Under the pieces are notes generated by a model that worked only from the letters and a program-made list of their open reading frames with translations, did no database searches and was not told the DNA's origin. DNA of 7,329 nucleotides. Origin: Planctomycetota bacterium (lineage in GTDB: Bacteria; Planctomycetota; UBA1135; UBA2386). Location of the stretch: contig QJVU01000081.1 in the NCBI GenBank assembly GCA_003235605.1, positions 1 to 7,329 on the forward strand, read 5' to 3'. A program made the translations under genes and the position numbers. This document shows, piece by piece, positions 96 to 7,329 of this stretch; the stretch's first letter is position 1, and the number at the start of each line of letters is the position of its first letter.

Positions 96-1259
96 ATGAA
101 AACGCCGACGCTCGTCCTCGCGGTCGTGCTCGCTATTCCCTGCGAGACCCACGCGCAGCTGCAGTCGACCTCTCCCAAGGACTTCCTGAGCAAGGAAGGG
201 GAGGGGATTGCACAATGGTTTGGCGCCTACAGCAACGGCCGCATCATGATGTTCGATGGCGAGCACCGGAACAGCTCCTTCCAGATCAAGGAAGTGGCAT
301 TGCGCCTCGACTACACCCAACACTACGGCACCACCACTGCGGCTCGAAAGTGGACGAACGTGACCCTGGACGTCTCCCCGTGCGACTTGACGCAGCTGTC
401 CACCACGTTCAGCCAGAACCCGACCGCGACTCCCAACCGGGTGTTCGGGGCGGCGGTGTCCTGGCCGCTGGGCAGCGGCCTGCCGGCTACTTTTCCCGCC
501 CCATGGGGAGGAGCCACGGGCGCCCTCCGGTTTCCGTTCCAGAAACCGTGGTCCTACTCGGGGAAGGCAGACATCTGCCTCGACTTCGATTTCAACGGCG
601 GGACCATTTCCAACAGCGCGTGGAAGACCGAGGCTTTCACATACCAGCTGGACGGCTACGTGACCGGCACGAACTTCAGCCTTGGGACACCGTTCTCCTT
701 GGGAAACGGAGGCACCGGCTCGGGCCCCGGCTGCGCCGACAGCGGGCAGTCGAACATCCGCGGGTTCGTCGTCCCAATCCTGACGACGTTCGGCCCGACC
801 TACTTGATCGCGAGCAAGCGGAACATGCACGAGCTGCGGATCGAGGTGTACGGGACGGCACCGAGCCGCCCGGTCGTGAGCGCCGTGAGCCTCGGTGGGT
901 CCACGAGCGGAACGGTGTTTCCGGGGGTATCCTGCAACAACCTCTACATCGACCCGTCACAGCCGACGTTCTACGGCTTGCTGACCGCCGACAGCTCCGG
1001 CATCACGTTCCAGAGCTTTCCCCTGTATCCGTACACGCCGGCGGCCACCGGGGCCCGACTGTGGTTCCAGGCCGCGTGGAACGACTCCAACACCGGCCTC
1101 CTGAAGCTGAGCCGCGCGGCATGGAACTCCGTGCCGCGCCAGGGCAGGTCGTATGCGCGCAGCACGGTCCATCAGCCGGACCCGACGAAGAAGAAGCAGT
1201 CGGGCAACGGCCCCACCCAGGACCCCCTGTGGAACCCGATCCTGAGGTACGCACACTAG
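96..1259 (+). CDS. Predicted secreted beta-rich protein, paralog of the convergent neighbour
   Basis: The 387-residue protein is probably exported. It begins with a short Sec signal peptide (Lys2, hydrophobic residues 5-14) and a likely cleavage site after Thr-His-Ala20. The rest is rich in Gly, Thr, Ser and aromatic residues with alternating patterns typical of beta-sandwich folds, and I recognise no catalytic motif. Several motifs recur in the same order in the opposite-strand gene next door: KWTNVTLDVS (85-94) against SWTRVALNMS, FPF-x-x-P followed by a Tyr-rich stretch and Phe-x-Gly-Gly (about 146-170), CNNLYIDP (280-287) against CNNLHIQP, and a short related C-terminus. The two are therefore diverged paralogs. 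The C-terminal 40 residues are basic and Pro-rich (a KKK run). The ATG at 96 is chosen because it gives the signal peptide; only a weak purine-rich ribosome site (GGGACC) precedes it. Function unknown; secreted or surface structural protein is the best description. Confidence 0.85.
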   Translation: MKTPTLVLAVVLAIPCETHAQLQSTSPKDFLSKEGEGIAQWFGAYSNGRIMMFDGEHRNSSFQIKEVALRLDYTQHYGTTTAARKWTNVTLDVSPCDLTQLSTTFSQNPTATPNRVFGAAVSWPLGSGLPATFPAPWGGATGALRFPFQKPWSYSGKADICLDFDFNGGTISNSAWKTEAFTYQLDGYVTGTNFSLGTPFSLGNGGTGSGPGCADSGQSNIRGFVVPILTTFGPTYLIASKRNMHELRIEVYGTAPSRPVVSAVSLGGSTSGTVFPGVSCNNLYIDPSQPTFYGLLTADSSGITFQSFPLYPYTPAATGARLWFQAAWNDSNTGLLKLSRAAWNSVPRQGRSYARSTVHQPDPTKKKQSGNGPTQDPLWNPILRYAH

Positions 1260-1273
1260 ACCGCTCGTAGCCG

Positions 1274-2407
1274 CTACCGATATGCGAATGCCAGGAACGC
1301 CATCGTCCAGGGTGTGTTGAGCCGCGTGCCGGTGGTCGTGGCCGGGTTGTCCGACCAGATCAGGATCTTTGCCACCGGCGCGGGCGGCGCACCGGCCAGG
1401 CGCATGGTTCGGGCTCCTGTCAGGCTGAGACGCCCCTGGGCGTTCTCGAATGCGGCCTGCGCCCCCGCCGTGACTCCGAAGGAAGACGGCGCAGATCGGA
1501 ACCAGATGTCGGACGTTCTGTGGGAACCACCTGGATCGAAGGGTGGGCTCGGTTGGCTGCCGACTCCGAAGAAGAACACCATTGGCTGGATGTGCAGATT
1601 GTTGCACAGGGCGCCGATGTTCACCGGCCTCTGCAGTGGCAAGCCCCAGGCGTGGATCAGCGGCTTGCCGGCAACCGCGTTCCAGGTCTCGCCGATGGCA
1701 AGCGTCTTGCCGCGGTACGAGGGCGTCGCGTGATCCTGGTGGAAGTTGTTCCACGTCATCCGGACCGCCGCGTTCCCACACTGGCCGGTGGTGATGTTCG
1801 CGGCTTCGTCCGAGAACGACACGCCTGTCGCCGACGCGGCATCCAGGTAGTAGGGCAGCGAGCTGCGCCACGTACCCTGGTTCGCGAGTGAACCGCCTTG
1901 GAATACCCACTCCAGCAGCAGGTCGTTCTTGCCCCCGTAGGCAAACGGGCTGCGGAAGGGGAACGCGACTTCCGCGCCCCACTTCGGCTTCTGCGGTCGG
2001 CCCGTGACCGTGGGCCAGGTGACCTTGCCGTCGAACACCGAAACCGGGGTCGCCAGTCGGTTGCTCTGGAATGTCTCCAACATCTTCAGGGCATTGGCTG
2101 TCTCGCTCATGTTCAGCGCAACCCTCGTCCACGATCGACCCACACCCATCGTCGCGTCGTAGCTGCGATTGTCGAGACGACATCCGACGCCCAGCACACT
2201 CAACGGGTTGCCCTGACGGAGCCCGCCGTCGCCCTGTTGGAAACGCATCGTGGGCAATGCCCCGAGTTGCAGCGTGTAGAGTTCGCCGGGCCTCTCCAGG
2301 TACCCGGCGGGGCTGGTGTCGAACTGAACGGCCTGCGCTGGCGTGCGTGTCGCCGAAGTGGTTGCGATGGCAACCACTGCGAGGGTCCGCAAGAGCAATC
2401 CGCACAT
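1274..2407 (-). CDS. Predicted secreted beta-rich protein, second member of the paralog pair
   Basis: The 377-residue protein starts with a signal peptide (Arg7, then a hydrophobic Ala/Val/Thr stretch to about 19) and a good Ala-Gln-Ala26 cleavage site. The mature part shares ordered motifs with the convergent gene at 96-1259: SWTRVALNMS at 92-101, FPFRSP at 149-154 followed by an Asn-Asp-Leu and Phe-Gln-Gly-Gly segment, a Gly-Thr-Trp with Tyr-Tyr-Leu-Asp segment (178-190), CNNLHIQP (268-275), and an aromatic C-terminus ending FAYR. Identity between the two looks low away from these blocks, so the duplication is old, or the genes were acquired separately. The stop codon lies 14 bp from the neighbour's stop, with no clear terminator between; only a 4-bp stem (GTAG-CCG-CTAC, 1267-1277) is present. 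No enzymatic motif is visible. This family is familiar in style from planctomycete genomes, but I cannot name it. Confidence 0.87.
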   Translation of the reverse strand: MCGLLLRTLAVVAIATTSATRTPAQAVQFDTSPAGYLERPGELYTLQLGALPTMRFQQGDGGLRQGNPLSVLGVGCRLDNRSYDATMGVGRSWTRVALNMSETANALKMLETFQSNRLATPVSVFDGKVTWPTVTGRPQKPKWGAEVAFPFRSPFAYGGKNDLLLEWVFQGGSLANQGTWRSSLPYYLDAASATGVSFSDEAANITTGQCGNAAVRMTWNNFHQDHATPSYRGKTLAIGETWNAVAGKPLIHAWGLPLQRPVNIGALCNNLHIQPMVFFFGVGSQPSPPFDPGGSHRTSDIWFRSAPSSFGVTAGAQAAFENAQGRLSLTGARTMRLAGAPPAPVAKILIWSDNPATTTGTRLNTPWTMAFLAFAYR

Positions 2408-4362: not shown

Positions 4363-5073
4363 CTAGGAAGAACTCTCCGTGGCAGTGGTTTCTGACCTGC
4401 CTTGAAGGTCACCGAGCAGGTACCGCGCGACGACCTCCTGCACGGAATGGGACCTTGTCTTGTCCAAGATGTGCTGTACGTGGTTGCGCACCGTGGCGTG
4501 GCTCACGTGGCACCGGGCAGCGATGGTCGGCAGATCCTGGTCCTTGGCGAGGTTTTCGAGGATCTCACGCTCCCGAGGCGTGAGCTTGTGCCAGTCGCCC
4601 GAGCGAGCCTTCGTGCCCGAGGACCGAGAGGCGACCCGCCGGAGGTAGCCTTCCAGGTGGTGCTCCCGGTTGCTGTCGAGAGCGCAGTGAATCAGCCAGA
4701 CCCCGTCGCGGCCAGGCGCTCGAAGCGGAATCCACAACACCCGAACCCAGGTGGCACGCTCGTCGGAAGGTCGTACCCGTACTTGGATCGGCTGTAGCTC
4801 GCGCTCTTGACGGACATTGCACAACGCGAGGCAGCACTCTCCACAAAACGGCCGACCTGCTTCATCGACGCCTTGAACGACACCATAGCACCTGCTGCCG
4901 AGGCACTCGTGCGCCGGCCTGCCAAACAGGCGCGAGGCCTGCGCATTCATGTAGCAGATACGACGGTCAGGGTCGCTGATCCAAACCGGTGTGGCCAGCA
5001 CCCGGACCCATGCCGGTATCTCCGGCATGTCCGTCGTATCCGGGCGTTGGTCCGTGGTCTTGCGACCTACCAT
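4363..5073 (-). CDS. PAS domain, LuxR-type (GerE) HTH transcription regulator
   Basis: The 236-residue protein is a one-piece regulator. Residues about 22-135 form a PAS sensor domain: a TPVWISD start, then YMNAQASRLFGR (41-52), then a region matching the end of PAS domains. Residues 163-222 form a LuxR/GerE helix-turn-helix: LTPREREILENLA (164-176), IAARCHVSHATVRNHVQHIL (184-203, containing the recognition helix), then a closing helix. There is no receiver domain with a phosphorylated Asp, so the signal probably enters through PAS. The sensor has a cysteine cluster: C57, C62, C77, C80, C81 and C85, plus C40 and C130. That could bind a metal or iron-sulfur centre, or respond to redox state (inference). 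The gene is divergent from the Hsp20 gene, with a dyad in the shared spacer, which makes that gene and itself the likeliest targets. The ATG at 5071-5073 is preceded by GGGTGAG, a weak ribosome site. Confidence 0.92.
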   Translation of the reverse strand: MVGRKTTDQRPDTTDMPEIPAWVRVLATPVWISDPDRRICYMNAQASRLFGRPAHECLGSRCYGVVQGVDEAGRPFCGECCLALCNVRQERELQPIQVRVRPSDERATWVRVLWIPLRAPGRDGVWLIHCALDSNREHHLEGYLRRVASRSSGTKARSGDWHKLTPREREILENLAKDQDLPTIAARCHVSHATVRNHVQHILDKTRSHSVQEVVARYLLGDLQGRSETTATESSS

Positions 5074-6434: not shown

Positions 6435-6881
6435 ATGTTGCTGAATGACCCCGTGCTGTACGGCGCAACGTTGCCCTACAGCGACATCCCGATCCCGTCA
6501 CATTGGGCCACGCCTTTCTCGAACCCGTGGCAACAGCCGAAGCAGTGGCAGGTGAGCCCGTGGCAGATGACCCCGTGGCAGAACTCATGGCAGATGACCC
6601 CCTGGCAGAACTCATGGCAGATGACCCCCTGGCAGATGAGCCAGTGGTCGGTGAACCCCTGGCAGGTGAACCCTTGGGCAACCACGTCGTGGCAGGACGT
6701 CAACAACTACCTGCCTCCGGACTTCGGCCTTTCGCCGTACCAGCAGTACCAGTCCTGGCAGCCGTTCCCGACGCTGCAGCACGTCCCTCCGATCACTCCT
6801 TGGCTGCAGCGGCCGATCCCCTTTGCGCAGCCCTACAACCTGAACAGGCCCTGCAACTGGCAGAGGCCACCCATCTTCTAG
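6435..6881 (+). CDS. Trp/Gln/Pro-rich repeat protein of unknown function
   Basis: This 148-residue protein fits no family I know. It has 16 Trp, 21 Gln and 27 Pro, no Glu and a single Lys. From Trp24 to Trp86 a Trp comes every 4, 5, 6 or 8 residues, settling to 5 and 4; the core is P-W-Q-M-T-P-W-Q-N-S, with the 9-residue unit WQMTPWQNS repeated at about 43-69. Acidic and basic residues are few (Asp5, 17, 88, 96; Lys36; Arg126, 138, 144). The N-terminal 22 residues and the C-terminal 60 are less repetitive but still rich in Pro, Tyr, Trp and Phe. There is no signal peptide and no membrane helix. A good ribosome site, AGGAG (6424-6428), stands 6 nt before the ATG. The composition suggests a disordered or extended chain with evenly spaced aromatic side chains, suited to self-assembly or to binding proline-rich or hydrophobic surfaces (inference). 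Its setting beside Hsp20 and a Clp-like ATPase suggests a proteostasis link. Confidence 0.85.
   Translation: MLLNDPVLYGATLPYSDIPIPSHWATPFSNPWQQPKQWQVSPWQMTPWQNSWQMTPWQNSWQMTPWQMSQWSVNPWQVNPWATTSWQDVNNYLPPDFGLSPYQQYQSWQPFPTLQHVPPITPWLQRPIPFAQPYNLNRPCNWQRPPIF
6561..6636 (+). repeat. 27-bp in-frame tandem repeat within the Trp-rich gene
   Basis: Units at 6561-6587 and 6588-6614 differ at one base (G/C at 6575 against 6602). A third partial unit from 6615 matches for 22 bases, to 6636, and then diverges. The unit is a multiple of three and encodes WQMTPWQNS. Near-identity at DNA level, including silent positions, points to recent duplication by slippage or unequal exchange rather than slow selection for the amino-acid pattern. 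Flanking, more diverged TGGCAG words suggest older rounds. Confidence 0.95.
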
Positions 6882-6975
6882 TTCACCGTTCCTGATTCAC
6901 CAGGCGTCAGGTGCGAGGCTCCATCACCGGGGCCGCCGCCCAGGTCAGCTTGGCCAGCCAGCTTGCCGGACCATT

Positions 6976-7052: not shown

Positions 7053-7329
7053 ATGTTCTCGGACGCGATCAAGGCGACTCTCGAGAAGGAGGTCGTGGGC
7101 CAGACCCTGGCGGTCAACACCGTCGTGCGCGGGTTGACCCGCCTCGTGAGCGGTTTCACGCCGCGAGAGCACTCGATGAGCGCCCACATGTTCATCGGCC
7201 CCCCCAGCACCGGAAAGTCCCATCTGGTCCGGAGCTTGGCGCGGCTACTGCACGGCGACGAGCGACGCCTCGTCATCGTGGACTGTGGTCAGCTGCCGGG
7301 AACCGATCCGCAGCTGACCTTTGCCGCGC
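7053..7329 (+). CDS. Clp-like AAA+ ATPase, N-terminal part (cut by window end)
   Basis: Only 92 residues are present and the frame is open at the window edge. The start resembles the core of ClpA/ClpB second AAA+ modules (AAA_2): EKEVVGQTLAVNTVVRGLTR (11-30), then a hydrophobic strand, then a P-loop GPPSTGKS (49-56) with Lys55 and Ser56, then SLARLLHGDE and the strand LVIVDCGQL (73-81). Clp-type ATPases unfold or disaggregate proteins with energy from ATP. The AAA+ module starts at the N-terminus with no Clp N domain or first ring, so this may be a single-ring enzyme. ATG 7053 is chosen because an in-frame stop lies at 6999-7001 and no other ATG intervenes; only a weak purine stretch precedes it. 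Same-strand placement after Hsp20 fits a chaperone locus. Downstream domains cannot be judged; a helicase-loader or MoxR type is less likely. Confidence 0.82.
   Translation, partial: MFSDAIKATLEKEVVGQTLAVNTVVRGLTRLVSGFTPREHSMSAHMFIGPPSTGKSHLVRSLARLLHGDERRLVIVDCGQLPGTDPQLTFAA

Follow-up and report, generated by a model that had tools for sequence, protein, structure and literature searches.

An open reading frame (ORF3) in the window, the whole stretch of 7,329 nucleotides analysed here, encodes a protein of 148 residues with 16 Trp, 27 Pro, 21 Gln, a single Lys and no Glu, a composition that the earlier note had counted exactly. This raises the question of whether such a chain is a genuine, maintained protein and, if so, what it might do beside genes for a small heat shock protein and a Clp-type ATPase. 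ORF3 had been placed between these two genes; both neighbours are retained in relatives, but Hsp20 is not adjacent, as a further small gene, ORF2, intervenes. The locus is a four-gene cassette in the order Hsp20, ORF2, ORF3 and AAA+, the last gene being cut by the end of the window after 92 codons (Table 1).

Table 1. Cassette genes, sequence elements of ORF3 and adjacent regulators; positions refer to the window unless a locus is named.
Feature	Position	Strand	Evidence
Divergently oriented regulator with PAS and LuxR-type HTH domains	4363..5073	-	Pfam GerE 1.2e-11, PAS 2.4e-10
Hsp20 (gene 1), 172 aa	5424..5942	+	Pfam HSP20 1.1e-17 (residues 73-171)
ORF2 (gene 2), 84 aa	6006..6260	+	alignments A4 and A6, AlphaFold2
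ORF3 (gene 3), Trp/Gln/Pro-rich protein, predicted disordered, 148 aa	6435..6881	+	composition, homologue P0002, positional relatives, AlphaFold2
Motif DPVLYG at the start of ORF3 (residues 5-10)	6447..6464	+	alignment A5 and L119, by eye
Trp repeat array of ORF3, 15-bp and 27-bp units, WQMTPWQNS type	6546..6677	+	Tandem Repeats Finder
AAA+ (gene 4), first 92 codons, ClpB/ClpC-D2-like, Walker A GPPSTGKS	7053..7329	+	NCBIfam ClpB 4.8e-10
XRE-type regulator beside the cassette	L001 9412-9864, L002 9422-9868, L084 ~7651-8052, L088 ~404-781	-	

Several lines of evidence indicate that ORF3 is a real and kept protein, as had been proposed. Third-position GC reaches 0.886 in its frame, whereas the two remaining forward frames have 0.50 and 0.49, and synonymous codon use, scored against the neighbouring genes, is 0.30 versus -0.20 and -0.24, with one antisense frame scoring nearly the same as ORF3 (0.29). 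The predicted ribosome site is present, AGGAG standing directly 5' of the ATG, and inspection by eye found a GGAG-type site before ORF3 in eight of nine printed cassette copies, the copy at locus L002 having AAAGG. An overlapping forward-frame ORF at 6503-6895 was rejected on its GC pattern. Secretion was considered and set aside, inspection by eye having shown no signal sequence. AlphaFold2 modelling from a nine-row alignment gave a mean pLDDT of 52.3 and a pTM of 0.15, from which ORF3 is predicted to be intrinsically disordered, a reading weakened by the shallowness of that alignment.

The even spacing of tryptophan reported for the window protein holds. Successive Trp gaps across residues 24-86 are 8, 6, 5, 5, 4, 5, 4, 5, 5, 5, 5 and 5, followed by 22, 15 and 19, so that 10 of 15 gaps equal 4 or 5, a number that none of 100,000 residue shuffles attained. 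Within ORF3, Tandem Repeats Finder identified a 27-bp unit in 2.8 copies with 97% matches (6561-6636), and part of the Trp regularity is therefore attributable to recent DNA duplication.

When about 5.8 billion proteins were searched with ORF3, the only hit at E<=1 apart from itself was P0002 (164 aa), whose longest contig has 1030 bases. The two proteins align from end to end, with 74% of the aligned columns identical; P0002 is missing 23 columns within the Trp array and has an insertion of PFGQPFTQ type, 38 columns long, near its C-terminus. A further candidate, P0003, appeared at E 0.43 in a profile search with the window protein and P0002, matched only at PFGQPF and was treated as a chance hit. 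The window ORF3 matched nothing in Pfam, NCBIfam, PHROGs, PADLOC or PDB sequences, in line with the view that no described family resembles it; the eight further ORF3 proteins described below had no Pfam match, and P0002 had no precomputed one. Genome contigs searched with ORF3 alone yielded nothing, and its positional relatives were reached through the alignment of Hsp20. With P0002 and a same-position ORF3 in eight further cassette copies, the protein can no longer be called an orphan.

The Hsp20 alignment A2, built from 21 of the 152 proteins (the window protein among them) that match the window Hsp20 at E<=1e-10, was run on genome contigs and gave 74 loci. At two of these, L001 (record titled Acidobacteria) and L002 (record titled Planctomycetota), Hsp20 matched the window protein over residues 1-172 or 1-171 with an identity near 50%; the matches at other loci started at residue 5 or later, in most cases within the core domain, and had lower identity or a shorter stretch. 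At E<=1e-45, A2 was found in 3 of 297 genomes of the phylum of G001 and 1 of 294 of the phylum of G002, and in 5 of 41 genomes of the class of G121 and 2 of 154 of the class of G002, these sets overlapping. The Hsp20 of G121 is identical in sequence to P0109, whose source is Candidatus Polarisedimenticolaceae bacterium. Five genomes besides those of L001 and L002 showed the identical gene order, and one of them, G595, carries a second cassette on another contig (L119), where Hsp20 is cut by the contig end (Pfam HSP20 1.1e-14). The order Hsp20, ORF2, ORF3 and AAA+ is thus constant in the window and in eight copies from seven genomes, and the suggestion to check whether relatives keep the Hsp20 and AAA+ neighbours is answered in the affirmative for all eight. 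Intergenic gaps range from -4 to 174 bases, the window having the longest in all three places. The two cassettes of G595 (L119, 758-3166; L086, 2316-4712) differ greatly in ORF3, one protein having QQWNWQQPQ repeats and 24% Trp and the other (L119) PLQA repeats and 2.6% Trp.

The AAA+ gene follows the same distribution. With the AAA+ alignment A3, matches at E<=5.1e-114 in the class of G121 (41 genomes) were confined to the five genomes that had passed with Hsp20, as six copies, the next match being 2.7e-64; in the class of G002 (154 genomes), matches at E<=1.6e-145 were confined to the two that had passed with Hsp20, the next being 3.9e-63. The AAA+ cut-off was placed in this E-value gap after the gap had been seen. 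Among the scored candidates of the two classes, 7 of the 195 genomes pass for both Hsp20 and AAA+, and the other 188 pass for neither. At 1e-70, no AAA+ match emerged from eight genomes that have other Hsp20 relatives, in a search that had no positive control.

Among 559 flank ORFs of at least 90 codons at the nine loci (flanks of 0 to 10 kb), matches between loci were limited to an XRE locus bordering the cassette and to a single remote region that L001 and L002 have in common. The divergent PAS-LuxR gene of the window is a possible regulator of the cassette and is not kept at the other loci; a divergent XRE-type gene occupies that place at four loci, the L001 copy matching HTH_31 at 1e-14. 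Further upstream in the window, two genes at 96-1259 (+) and 1274-2407 (-) face each other 14 bases apart; by eye their products look secreted, 99 of 352 aligned columns are identical between them, and neither has a Pfam or NCBIfam match. The 96-1259 protein has matches at 1e-8 in 2 of 154 genomes of the class of G002 (G669, 34% identity; G706, 29%). A 13-bp tandem repeat, CGCCCCCTGAGTT, lies at 17-67 in 3.9 copies with 97% matches. A phage or plasmid origin of the cassette was considered and rejected, as the window ORF2 and five ORF3 proteins had no PHROG match and the window ORF3 had no phage match; a plasmid search with the L084 AAA+ at E 1e-60 likewise found no match. PADLOC assigned none of its anti-phage defence families to the window ORF3, ORF2 and Hsp20, the L001 AAA+ or the ORF3 of L086 and L087.

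Comparison of ten ORF3 members (the window, P0002 and the eight other cassette copies) shows which features belong to the family. The sequence DPx(L/M)Y(G/S) occurs within residues 3-15 in 8 of 10, as judged by eye; the L086 protein lacks this start and the L087 protein has only IPNFYG, so that the kinship of these two rests on position and composition. Repeats vary by lineage and include WQMTPWQNS, PFGQPFTQ, QREVPFTHPFFAQWQ, YFTPQIPQ, QQWNWQQPQ, TPWNGFNN, TPYMQGY and PLQA. Measured against eight of the nine neighbouring Hsp20 proteins (that of L119, being cut, was left out), all ten members are depleted in charged residues (DEKR, 1.0-10.1% versus 20.7-31.4%) and enriched in aromatics (10.5-25.2% versus 4.7-9.3%), with at least 18% aromatic residues in eight and lower values in L085 (13.2%) and L119 (10.5%, the PLQA repeat). 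Trp richness and even spacing, the two properties first noticed, did not extend to the family: Trp exceeds 7% in just 3 of 10 members, and aromatic residues are spaced more evenly than in shuffled sequences in just three (window, P0002, L087) and not in the other seven, for which reason even Trp spacing was dropped as the key trait. By a second measure, a count of close pairs lower than in shuffled sequences, four members fall below 0.05, L088 joining these three. The sticker-and-spacer idea of the earlier note survives in part, in that a disordered, low-charge, aromatic chain fits it.

ORF3 changes rapidly. In all five pairs compared over aligned codons, dN was lower than dS, although the alignments are loose and four of the pairs are weak evidence. 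For L002/L088, dN and dS were 0.31 and 0.74 in ORF3 and 0.31 and 0.71 in Hsp20, and in the other four pairs dN was higher in ORF3 than in Hsp20 (window/L088, 0.53 versus 0.49; window/L001, 0.65 versus 0.43; L001/L084, 0.65 versus 0.43; window/L002, 0.84 versus 0.41).

Hsp20 relatives in A2 share an N-terminal stretch around FPPGVDP; the window protein ends in IDI, and tripeptides like I/V-x-I/V, which we take to be a mark of Hsp20/alpha-crystallin proteins, were seen by eye in most A2 rows. Pfam also recognised the alpha-crystallin domain in L084, L086, L087 and L119, the other Hsp20 genes being identified by tblastn with the window protein. ORF2 matched nothing in Pfam, NCBIfam, PADLOC or PHROG. 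AlphaFold2 predicts for it a single helix at residues 23-50 that contains the stretch CHTLCQILWRHIA, with mean pLDDT of 90-95 over residues 31-50 and low-scoring tails, and the tail is Pro-rich. The window ORF2 aligns with seven others in each of A4 and A6 at 17-31% identity, and in these two overlapping alignments of eight, which together comprise the nine ORF2 proteins, the sequences come into register on a stretch like VHTLAQLIYRHLA, each alignment having no more than two invariant columns.

The fourth gene was described as encoding a Clp-like ATPase, which is right as to homology with the D2 domain of ClpB/ClpC; by its motifs, however, the protein appears degenerate and non-threading in all eight readable copies. 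These full copies are 337-356 aa long and consist of a single D2-like domain without N and D1 domains. The alignment A3 matches ClpC (4.7e-60) and ClpB (9.6e-58) chains in the PDB over the whole D2 domain, as well as chains of CLPB homologues, and both the P-loop and the D2-small domain were found. Comparators were the 53 best non-cassette A3 matches with loci returned (25 from the class of G121, 28 from that of G002). The GYVG/GYIG pore loop is present in none of the eight readable cassette proteins and the Walker B DE in none either, whereas all 53 comparators have both; the residues at the Walker B position in the eight copies are QR, QH, EY, HD, ER, EQ, EN and EH. Seven of the nine cassette proteins, the window copy among them, retain the Walker A Lys (GxxxxGK), as do 53 of 53 comparators; it is replaced by Arg in L002 and L088, the latter also having Ala after it, and from these replacements ATP binding by the two proteins seems doubtful. 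The Arg finger and the sensor-2 Arg have assigned roles in Hsp100-type AAA+ proteins. Both are kept in L001, L084, L085 and L086 (4 of 8) and in 53 of 53 comparators, and both are lost in L002, L087, L088 and L119 (4 of 8). This paired loss in four proteins and paired retention in the other four looks as if the ATPase site had decayed stepwise. In some copies (L001, L002, L084, L088), the A3 columns show a REVPV-like C-terminal tail, which could possibly serve as a docking peptide.

The window copy is cut before its pore loop and Walker B. Over the matched part it is 46-57% identical to the AAA+ proteins of seven relatives, and we infer that it is like the other cassette proteins. Mutant studies of related machines bear on what such a protein might do. 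Walker B Glu mutants of ClpG lose turnover in the affected domain and still form ATP-driven oligomers, and mutation of the pore-loop Tyr in its AAA2 domain abolishes disaggregation (PMC8024975, excerpts); in Skd3, Walker B and the pore loop are both needed for disaggregation (PMC7343390, excerpts). Because of these analogies, the cassette AAA+ proteins should oligomerize, ATP-bound in the majority of lineages, without threading substrate.

Taken together, these features lead us to favour, tentatively and short of confidence, a reading in which ORF3 is a self-associating disordered scaffold that is handled by its own Hsp20, an ORF2 adaptor and a non-threading AAA+ protein. ORF3 would be a cytoplasmic chain, intrinsically disordered and poor in charge, with abundant aromatics, Pro, Gln and Asn. 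It may self-associate by aromatic contacts, and the resulting condensate, gel or fibre-like body would probably be made under stress or dormancy. The dedicated Hsp20 would bind ORF3 and either keep the body reversible or load clients into it, and ORF2 might be a small adaptor whose helix docks on a partner while its Pro/Trp tail mingles with the ORF3 chain. The AAA+ protein would form a ring or cap, ATP-bound in most lineages, with inefficient ATP hydrolysis and no threading of substrate, and may thus act as a scaffold or nucleotide sensor, not as an unfoldase. Confidence in this scaffold reading is lowered by the loss of the Walker A Lys in two of nine AAA+ proteins. Put more generally and with somewhat greater reserve, the locus could represent a bacterial condensate or body system composed of a fast-evolving disordered scaffold, its own small Hsp, a helical adaptor and a non-threading, hydrolysis-poor descendant of Hsp100. 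In such a system, the ORF3 repeats would be rewritten by lineage (PWQ, PFGQ, YFTPQIP, NWQQPQ, TPWNGFNN, PLQA) with charge depletion maintained, and the very different scaffolds of the two G595 cassettes would suggest two coexisting body types.

An alternative that we consider unlikely is the bait chain already raised in the earlier note, in which ORF3 serves as a sacrificial aggregation seed that gathers misfolded proteins into small Hsp-rich deposits under stress, to be emptied later by housekeeping ClpB/Hsp70, the cassette AAA+ only recruiting. The low charge and aromatic content of ORF3 and its operon partnership with a small Hsp suit such a role, and for the sHsp20 of tLST islands a holding-chaperone function in cooperation with ClpK is described (PMC8407380, excerpts), but a bait chain alone leaves both ORF2 and the loss of the pore loop and Walker B from the AAA+ protein unexplained. 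Less probable again, ORF3 could be the building block of a defined body such as a fibre, sheet or shell, for which Hsp20, ORF2 and AAA+ would be assembly factors as in gas vesicle formation. The combination of one variable, structural-looking protein with dedicated chaperone-like genes is what this would predict, and GvpN, an AAA+ ATPase, is required for gas vesicle elongation; ATPase activity is, however, confirmed for a GvpN homologue (PMC11445434, excerpts), whereas the cassette protein lacks the catalytic residues. Moreover, no Gvp family was found by Pfam and NCBIfam among eight scanned proteins of the window, and the strong variation of ORF3 repeats between members is unexpected of a rigid lattice. 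It is very unlikely that ORF3 is a disordered regulator or client whose solubility is controlled by the cassette AAA+, as that of HAX1 is by single-ring Skd3/CLPB: a single D2-type domain beside a disordered partner and the A3 matches to CLPB-homologue chains recall that pair, and HAX1 turns insoluble on Skd3 loss, but Skd3 disaggregation depends on the Walker B and pore loop (PMC7343390, excerpts), the very elements that the cassette protein is without. That ORF3 is a spurious frame or a functionless low-complexity by-product is scarcely credible and already contradicted, since its low complexity, its single homologue at E<=1 besides itself and a codon use barely above that of one antisense frame are outweighed by GC3, the ribosome sites (GGAG-type in 8 of 9 copies), a fixed position in nine cassettes, the end-to-end homologue P0002 and dN below dS in 5 of 5 pairs.

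The Hsp20 and Clp parts of the cassette are relatives of known families; no description of such a cassette was found in the literature searched, which comprised open-access papers. Hsp20 and the ClpB/ClpC D2 domain are known, and ORF2 and ORF3 match nothing in the family libraries tried. If the favoured reading is true, the locus would offer a compact genetic model for the turnover of sticker chains, in which conserved composition and matching dedicated chaperones come together, and it would add a case of an Hsp100-type domain from which threading and hydrolysis have apparently been lost and which is kept within the cassette in records from two phyla. It also illustrates that an apparently orphan low-complexity protein can be placed via its neighbour genes.

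Among known systems, the ClpB/ClpC D2 domain resembles the cassette AAA+ in sequence over the whole domain, with its P-loop and D2-small domain, although the cassette protein has lost the pore loop and the Walker B DE and stands without N and D1. GvpN belongs to a different AAA+ type from this ClpB/ClpC-D2-like protein. Gas vesicle genes likewise cluster a structural protein with AAA+ and chaperone-like helpers (PMC11445434, excerpts), but neither a GvpA-type shell protein nor any Gvp family is present among the eight window proteins searched with Pfam and NCBIfam. The tLST sHsp20-ClpK pair resembles the cassette in encoding a small Hsp together with a Clp-type AAA+ protein (PMC8407380, excerpts), and ClpG is an active two-domain disaggregase whose AAA domains each have the Walker B Glu and the pore-loop Tyr (PMC8024975, excerpts), whereas the cassette AAA+ has one degenerate D2-like domain; the excerpted parts of these two papers mention no counterpart of ORF2 and ORF3. 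Skd3 (mitochondrial CLPB) with HAX1 also pairs a single ClpB-type AAA+ domain with a highly disordered partner, but Skd3 requires the Walker B Glu and the GYVG pore loop (PMC7343390, excerpts), both missing from the cassette protein. Skd3 also carries ankyrin repeats, whereas the cassette AAA+, being 337-356 aa long, is without any long additional N-terminal domain. Finally, prion-like and other sticker-and-spacer domains share with ORF3 their disorder, few charges and aromatics set among polar Q/N/P spacers, from which ORF3 differs in being a short, whole bacterial protein encoded in a chaperone cassette, with even spacing in only 3 of 10 members.
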